Source of the DNA: Meiothermus sp.
GTDB lineage: Bacteria; Deinococcota; Deinococci; Deinococcales; Thermaceae
DNA length: 64,000 bases
Assembly: GCA_026004095.1 (NCBI GenBank)
Contig: BPIL01000005.1
Location: forward strand, 62,001 to 126,000
Direction: 5' to 3'
Shown: positions 39,827-39,986 of the stretch, one piece after another
Position numbering within the stretch: the first letter of the stretch is position 1
Layout: each line of letters opens with the position of its first letter
Made by a program: the position numbers and the translations under genes
The notes under the pieces: generated by a model
Database searches by the model: none
What the model was told of the DNA's origin: nothing
The model's input: only the letters and a program-made list of their open reading frames with translations

Positions 39827-39842
39827 CGGGCCAAACCTGGTA

Positions 39843-39848
39843 TAAAAT
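39843..39848 (+). promoter_or_regulatory. -10 element of the metG leader
   Basis: TAAAAT within TATAAAAT (39841-39848), 6 nt before the GTG of the leader peptide. The possible -35 GTGACG (39819-39824) is 18 bp upstream. Confidence 0.6.
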
Positions 39849-39854
39849 AGCCCT

Positions 39855-39902
39855 GTGGTAGGCTACCGGTTGACCCGAATGATGCGAAACCCCCGACGAT
39901 AG
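39855..39902 (+). CDS. putative metG leader peptide with tandem Met codons
   Basis: A 15-codon reading frame, MVGYRLTRMMRNPRR, starting with GTG directly after the -10 element (leaderless) and ending TAG inside the 5' arm of a hairpin. Codons 9 and 10 are ATG ATG. The position, size and tandem codons for the amino acid used by the downstream synthetase are the classic layout of an attenuator leader. Not proven to be translated. Confidence 0.55.
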   Translation: MVGYRLTRMMRNPRR

Positions 39903-39925
39903 CAGCAGTGAGGCTATCGGCGGGG
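39891..39925 (+). promoter_or_regulatory. antiterminator-like hairpin in the metG leader
   Basis: CGATAGC (39897-39903) pairs with GCTATCG (39913-39919), and CCCC (39891-39894) with GGGG (39922-39925) across a small internal loop. The GGGG is also the first part of the terminator stem, so the two structures exclude each other. Confidence 0.6.
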
Positions 39926-39946
39926 CGCGTTTGCGCCCCTTTTTTT
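39922..39946 (+). terminator. attenuator terminator before metG
   Basis: GGGGCGC-GTTT-GCGCCCC followed by seven T. It lies 40 bp upstream of metG and downstream of its only visible promoter, so it must be regulated for metG to be expressed. Confidence 0.88.
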
Positions 39947-39986
39947 GGCAAACCCAGCCTAAAACCGAACGCCCAAGGAGTTAACT

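Follow-up and report, generated by a model that had tools for sequence, protein, structure and literature searches.

Enterobacterial pheST is controlled by leader-peptide attenuation with a synthetase gene downstream, and T-box leaders bind tRNA directly, without translation. In mycobacteria, leaderless polycysteine ORFs were reportedly described as attenuators by Canestrari in 2020. For Streptomyces, attenuators have been predicted for trpS and leuS (available text of PMC1262725), and in trp the untranslated leader forms hairpins I:II and III:IV and terminates (available text of PMC1183508). In mycobacterial ilvB1, a ribosome at the stop codon masks the antiterminator and a stalled one permits it (available text of PMC13236596). 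A leaderless pattern, TANNNT about 6-7 bp before the ORF, has been published for Deinococcota in PMC12340547, of which the accessible portion makes no mention of attenuation, a leader peptide or metG; the accessible portion of PMC2965389 likewise does not mention Thermus, Deinococcus or metG. The sequence-only reading followed up here had held that no leader-peptide attenuation is described for a methionyl-tRNA synthetase in this phylum, and indeed no description of such an attenuator before metG was found in the searchable, openly licensed literature (CC0, CC BY or CC BY-SA).

The window analysed here is a 64-kb stretch of Meiothermus DNA, and all features given below for its metG locus lie on the plus strand. 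The gene itself (39987-41873, GTG start, 628 aa) encodes a class I methionyl-tRNA synthetase (PF09334, E 5e-91, together with PF01588) and is preceded by a likely ribosome-binding site, AAGGAG, recognized by eye at 39975-39980. Further upstream, a -10 promoter box, TAAAAT (39843-39848), stands 6 nt ahead of the start codon of a 15-codon leader ORF, MVGYRLTRMMRNPRR, in a leaderless arrangement. This frame runs from a GTG start to a TAG stop (39855-39902) and reads GTG-GTA-GGC-TAC-CGG-TTG-ACC-CGA-ATG-ATG-CGA-AAC-CCC-CGA-CGA-TAG. The first codon of its Met tandem, referred to as the control Met codon (39879-39881), lies 7 codons before the stop with CGA just upstream, and the second follows at 39882-39884. 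The stop codon is part of the 5' arm of an antiterminator (39891-39925), predicted from folding and from relatives, in which CCCCG.CGATAGC (39891-39903) pairs with GCTATCG.CGGGG (39913-39925). The 3' arm of this hairpin overlaps the 5' arm of an intrinsic terminator, GGGGCGC-GTTT-GCGCCCC-T7 (39922-39946), GGGG 39922-39925 being common to both. All the elements named in the sequence-only reading (-10 box, frame, ATG pair, hairpin, terminator and common GGGG) were thus recovered base for base.

The combination of TANNNT, start codon, short frame and terminator matched once on both strands of the window, at the metG leader. The same scan of both strands of 1.43 Mb of fetched loci returned 72 matches, 65 with an internal Met, the 72 including many metG leaders themselves, some of them duplicated. 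Folded alone, the window leader RNA was no better than its shuffles (z -0.1 and -0.8), so that support for an attenuator comes from comparison with relatives. Between rpiA and the metG promoter lies a transposase element (38675-39817, with a PF13808/PF01609 frame) that is bounded by a 10-bp repeat, GGTGACGACC (38665-38674 and 39818-39827), has ends AGACTTGACCG/CGGTCAAGTCT as judged by eye, and is absent in L006 and L088; the right copy of the repeat contains a weak -35-like GTGACG.

On the strength of the sequence comparisons, we consider it highly likely that the leader of metG acts as a ribosome-mediated transcription attenuator responding to Met-tRNA, one of a set placed before synthetase genes. 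Transcription would start at or beside the start codon of the very short leader frame, with leaderless translation of this frame. When Met-tRNA is ample, the ribosome would reach the stop codon inside the antiterminator 5' arm and melt this hairpin, the terminator would form, and metG would not be transcribed. With scarce Met-tRNA, the ribosome would wait at the control Met codon or never initiate, the arm carrying the stop codon would be free to pair with the terminator 5' arm, and transcription would continue into metG. MetRS charges both Met tRNAs, including the initiator, and failed leaderless initiation would therefore be expected to have the same effect. In this scheme, we infer that termination actually occurs, that the frame is translated and that the switch responds to Met-tRNA charging.

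The distribution of the leader was analyzed in 111 Deinococcota genomes, of which 103 yielded metG and 99 a readable upstream region; in G061, G080, G086 and G095 the match began inside metG, and these were excluded together with the second match of G102. Genus names follow resemblance to named loci (g1 Meiothermus, g3 Calidithermus, g4 Thermus, f5 Trueperaceae), and g1-g3 are referred to as Meiothermus-type. A leaderless frame of 7-27 codons with an internal Met, having its own start and stop, was found upstream of metG in 79 of the 99 regions and in all five families (f1-f5). A spacing of 5-9 nt between -10 box and start codon yielded 76 of these leaders, L168-L170 were added at 10 nt, and the starts of L166 and L167 were moved upstream, giving spacings of 11 and 10 nt. 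Overall, the spacing was 7 nt in 47 leaders, 6 in 19, 8-9 in 8 and 10-11 in 5, so that 66 of 79 show the spacing of the published leaderless pattern; 61 start with ATG and 18 with GTG. Terminator calls were obtained for 75 of the first 76 leaders, those for the Thermus loci L110 and L111 being artefacts of a lost hairpin: in both, the first hairpin is missing and the leader stop abuts the terminator. In L099, the frame is kept and its stop lost, so that it continues across the terminator to an end that overlaps the metG start (ATGA); this natural variant may couple translation of the two. The exact Thermus leader motif occurs in 19 of the 111 genomes, once in each, and coordinate comparison places it at metG.

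The search that gave these 79 leaders had demanded an internal Met, and a Met-blind scan was therefore performed on the same 99 regions. It matched 71, and all 71 contain an internal Met. Close relatives that keep the terminator and lack the small frame or its Met codons had been named beforehand as the finding that would speak against an attenuator, and the opposite was found. No leader was seen within 330 nt in 19 of the 99 regions (L114, L115, L141, L144-L153, L177-L181 and L184); in L149-L153 and L177 metG itself looks leaderless by eye, with TANNNT shortly before its own ATG. Among 80 further-collected metG loci, read over the first 3 kb on one strand, the sole match outside Deinococcota was a Met-less frame in Thermovorax (L036). 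These 80 include no locus titled Deinococcus, and nothing is claimed for that genus. In L017, on a contig labelled Latescibacterota, metG is as similar to the query (60%) as Thermus metG is, and no leader was found before it.

Typical leader peptides are V..RMMRMSRR in Meiothermus, MKGMPRx in Thermus, MSGFFVRRMMGVPRR in Calidithermus, and MTWRMMGRRPGRD and MTRRSMPRRPATA in Trueperaceae. Within groups, the position of the control Met is constrained from the stop codon rather than from the start. In the 21 Meiothermus-type leaders, the first internal Met invariably lies 7 codons before the stop, at six different distances from the start (6-10 and 16). In all 26 Thermus-type leaders, the internal Met lies 4 codons before the stop. 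In f5 (25 leaders), where the first Met no more than 10 codons ahead of the stop was used as the control Met whenever possible, it stands 8 (10 leaders), 9 (14) or 10 (1) codons before the stop and 3-17 codons from the start. The cognate codon therefore holds a fixed place before stop and antiterminator in Meiothermus-type and Thermus leaders; a stall-sensing leader requires just this, a Met whose place is set by the attenuator and is independent of the start.

The tandem Met proposed from the window survives in its first half only: this Met is kept in 21 of 21 Meiothermus-type leaders, and the second is replaced in some relatives by ATA, CTG, AAG, ATC or GTG. Moreover, 5 of the 21 contain no internal Met besides the first, and the comparison indicates that only the first Met is indispensable and the second dispensable. 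Of 53 non-Thermus leaders, 39 have a CGA codon just ahead of the control Met, among them all 21 of Meiothermus type (39876-39878 in the window); CGA accounts for 3 of the 37 Arg codons of the window's metG, and before the control Met it may act as a slow codon or avoid pairing.

Competition between the two hairpins was next examined in predicted folds of the nascent RNA behind the control Met. These fold statistics cover 73 of the 76 leaders (without L110, L111 and L158) and used too-late starts for L166 and L167. In 72 of 73 loci (88% in dinucleotide shuffles), the terminator 5' arm has at least 4 bases engaged in upstream pairs, and all 73 have one or more bases of the stop codon within the paired 5' arm, as compared with 63% in shuffles. 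In 59 of 73 loci, 95 or more of 100 shuffles fold less stably than the leader, with mean z of -3.1 in 17 Meiothermus leaders, -3.2 in 32 others and -1.8 in 24 from Thermus. The share of terminator-arm bases paired upstream (0.82) is little above that in shuffles (0.70). Mutually exclusive antiterminator and intrinsic terminator are thus predicted at these loci, more weakly in Thermus.

The sequence-only reading had called for compensatory stem changes, and these were observed outside Thermus. There, the stop codon and its partner in predicted folds vary together, TAG facing mostly ATC, TAA mostly ATT and TGA mostly GCT. In Thermus, mainly the outer stop bases pair, with the middle base left unpaired at 23 of 24 loci. 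When a MAFFT alignment was folded to a consensus, only four pairs were retained, as the stop-containing stem shifts between clades, and arms were therefore exchanged between loci instead. In f2-f5 (28 loci), cognate arms pair 4.65 kcal/mol better, which was equalled in 0 of 20,000 permutations, and in g1-g3 (21 loci) they pair 0.9 kcal/mol better (p 0.007); these permutation tests ignore phylogeny, and the folds rest on model parameters, not thermophile data. Thermus (21 loci) gave no support in this test, which had been placed for the other clades (p 0.98), and when partners were ranked, the cognate arm came within the best 5% at only 15 of 70 loci. In a MAFFT alignment covering 46 sequences, the outer helix is formed in 89.7% of cells and shows double changes at a single pair, where ten sequences have U-A for C-G. 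Its covariation score was reached by 2 of 500 shuffles in alignment A1 and, without significance, by 86 of 500 in A2, a 20-sequence subset restricted to f5; both alignments omit Thermus, L139, L140, L158 and L182. Overall, the covariation of the outer helix appears modest.

We next looked for sister leaders before other synthetase genes. A simple pattern search of the window's own genome was uninformative, with 9 matches as compared with 8 for the reversed pattern. The idea that metG has the sole leader of this kind in the genome was considered and rejected: a scan of both strands with wider spacing showed MRSRPTTRPGEDF before thrS, MYFALRC before cysS and MVGGWFFS before pheS (L193, L189 and L190, genes identified by NCBIfam). 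To place these leaders among relatives, 30 loci per gene from the family were read, of 50 (thrS), 49 (cysS) and 50 (pheS) genomes with a match. In Meiothermus-type genera (L200-L221, L230-L251 and L260-L280 for thrS, cysS and pheS, respectively), searching for the cognate pattern, alongside which a blind listing was also made, gave the following counts: a leader with Thr followed by Thr, Asn, Cys or Ser before thrS in 21 of 22 loci, a leader with Cys as its last codon before cysS in 20 of 22, and a leader with Phe-Phe as third and second last codons before pheS in 21 of 21. Thermus-type loci showed no leader before thrS (8 loci), cysS (8) or pheS (9), and the valS-, serS-, proS- and hisS-like loci of the window's genome (named by eye), as well as L192 and L197, showed no cognate leader by scan or by eye. 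A SAM riboswitch above gathering score lies near the serS-like locus of the window's genome (L194:3131-3256).

The architecture of the sister leaders resembles that of metG to different degrees. In 8 thrS leaders examined closely, Thr-Thr or Thr-Asn/Cys/Ser lies 8-9 codons before the stop, and in most of the 8 folded the stop codon is spanned by a hairpin with a 3' arm that extends into the terminator, just as it does for metG. The 8 folded pheS leaders show two adjoining hairpins that share an arm by eye, with only a weak T-run. The Cys codon of cysS leaders adjoins the stop (e.g., L230), which puts stalled and terminating ribosomes one codon apart, and metG geometry does not explain this design. 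The sequences thus show short frames and cognate codons at fixed places before several synthetase genes and, in metG, mutually exclusive hairpins and their coevolution. In our view, the cognate-codon rule is the strongest evidence that these leaders would sense tRNA, and the metG leader itself very probably responds to Met-tRNA.

To compare ribosome states, we calculated, at 37 C and 60 C, the energy by which the antiterminator intermediate exceeds the terminator state. At 60 C (71 loci, without L110, L111, L158, L166 and L167), the untranslated state is predicted to favour the antiterminator by at least 2 kcal/mol relative to the stop-bound state in all loci but one (70 of 71; 21/21 in g1-g3, 24/24 in Thermus and 25/26 in f2-f5). 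A ribosome stalled at the control Met has the same advantage in 21/21, 24/24 and 24/26 loci, respectively, when 6 nt are masked behind the A-site codon, in 21/21, 7/24 and 19/26 with 9 nt, and in 5/21, 2/24 and 12/26 with 12 nt. A ribosome covers about 12 nt downstream of the translated codon (PMC4833913). In Meiothermus, Thermus and f5, pairing of the antiterminator with the terminator arm is predicted to begin at a median of only 4-5 nt behind the Met codon, so that part of the helix would be covered by the ribosome. In Thermus, the CCCC arm directly follows the Met codon, and stall-dependent antitermination hangs on the footprint assumed. The proposed logic of stop and stall is therefore borne out by predicted energies in Meiothermus-type leaders and turns footprint-dependent in Thermus: the model would work for Meiothermus and most f2-f5 loci with footprints up to 9 nt, and looks marginal for Thermus, where it holds only with a short one. 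Furthermore, no 1:2 protector hairpin, and hence no trp-type set of three hairpins, was seen in the predicted folds. In the free state, the mean upstream pairing of the terminator arm is predicted at 0.77-0.94 by group. Without a visible protector stem, an untranslated leader should also read through.

These energies bear on two readings in which the internal Met is not the main signal. In the first, uncharged initiator tRNA would block leaderless initiation and thereby mainly induce metG, the internal Met being secondary. MetRS charging of both Met tRNAs suits this view; the predicted energies, averaged within each group, give untranslated and start-bound states an antiterminator advantage over the stop-bound state, and in Thermus the internal stall is where the logic is weakest. 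It nevertheless fails to account for a Met whose distance from the start varies and whose distance from the stop is fixed, or for sister leaders whose cognate codons have no role in initiation, and we regard it as quite unlikely. In the second, any failure of translation (initiation block, antibiotic or energy stress) would lead to read-through and the internal Met would not be the signal. The missing protector stem and the predicted preference of untranslated RNA for the antiterminator in nearly all loci would be expected from such a general sensor, as would the conserved leader start and its spacing to the -10 box. However, it leaves unexplained why Met recurs in all Met-blind matches and at a fixed place relative to the stop, and why Thr, Cys and Phe codons precede thrS, cysS and pheS, which makes it slightly more improbable still. 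The cognate codons of the sister leaders thus raise attenuation by Met-tRNA as the main explanation and lower both of these rivals.

A tRNA- or ligand-binding RNA of the T-box or riboswitch kind, with a coincidental frame, would also present a structured leader and terminator before a synthetase gene. Such control may exist in the same genome: ileS, in the window, has a T-box-like leader (about 51545-51788, strand -; L186:3601-3844) that matches RF00230 over its full length with 53.9 bits and E 6e-11, below the gathering score of 93, which suggests that this genome mixes T-box-like and leader-peptide control of synthetases. For metG, the T-box covariance model gave no match: no Rfam family reached its gathering score in the leader of the window or of 11 relatives, and a search of the metG leader up to E 5 returned only two chance-level matches. 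A frame kept across lengths of 7-27 codons argues further against a binding RNA, which we judge very improbable. Finally, an ordinary constitutive terminator with a meaningless small frame would fit the unremarkable fold of the single sequence, yet frame, Met, spacing and hairpins are conserved across five families and the cognate-codon rule also holds before three further synthetases, which leaves it a negligible probability.

Attenuation by Met-tRNA thus remains the preferred reading of the metG leader, and a broader proposal can be made tentatively, as a possibility that we rate below even. Meiothermus and its nearest genera may sense tRNA charging in general through leaderless micro-leaders, each 6-23 codons long and serving one of several synthetase genes, with the metG leader acting as a dual sensor of Met-tRNA. 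Without fMet-tRNA, the frame would never be entered and the protector-less RNA would antiterminate by default; the elongator tRNA at the control Met would provide the second reading, and this metG version would be the most widespread one. Methionine makes the question of initiation versus elongation testable with one reporter.

Taken together, these comparisons suggest that a phylum rich in leaderless messages gains a clearly conserved control of synthetase genes by tRNA charging, spanning metG in five families and thrS, cysS and pheS in Meiothermus-type genera. Leaders are minimal in Thermus, with seven codons and one control codon. This genus is much used in ribosome and polymerase work, and coupling of transcription and translation on leaderless RNA could thus be studied there on a natural switch.

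Among known systems, T-box leaders share with the metG leader the terminator/antiterminator control of a synthetase gene by tRNA charging and differ in that the metG leader gives no T-box match. The mycobacterial polycysteine ORFs, compared by title, are alike in being short, leaderless and equipped with codons of the regulated amino acid; they differ in serving cysteine operons and in a 2005 prediction without conserved terminator hairpins (available text of PMC1262725). Mycobacterial ilvB1 uses stopped and stalled ribosomes in the same way, and differs in its branched-chain codons, biosynthetic operon, 166-nt leader and phylum, as far as the available text of PMC13236596 describes it. The classical attenuators (trp, his and pheST of enterobacteria, and trpS and leuS of Streptomyces) share the short translated leader, the cognate codons and the alternative of antiterminator and terminator; pheST, trpS and leuS also share the downstream synthetase gene (for trpS and leuS, available text of PMC1262725). 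By its sequence, the metG leader would work like these classical systems, yet with a leaderless start, no visible 1:2 protector stem, often a single control codon and an amino acid that also serves initiation.
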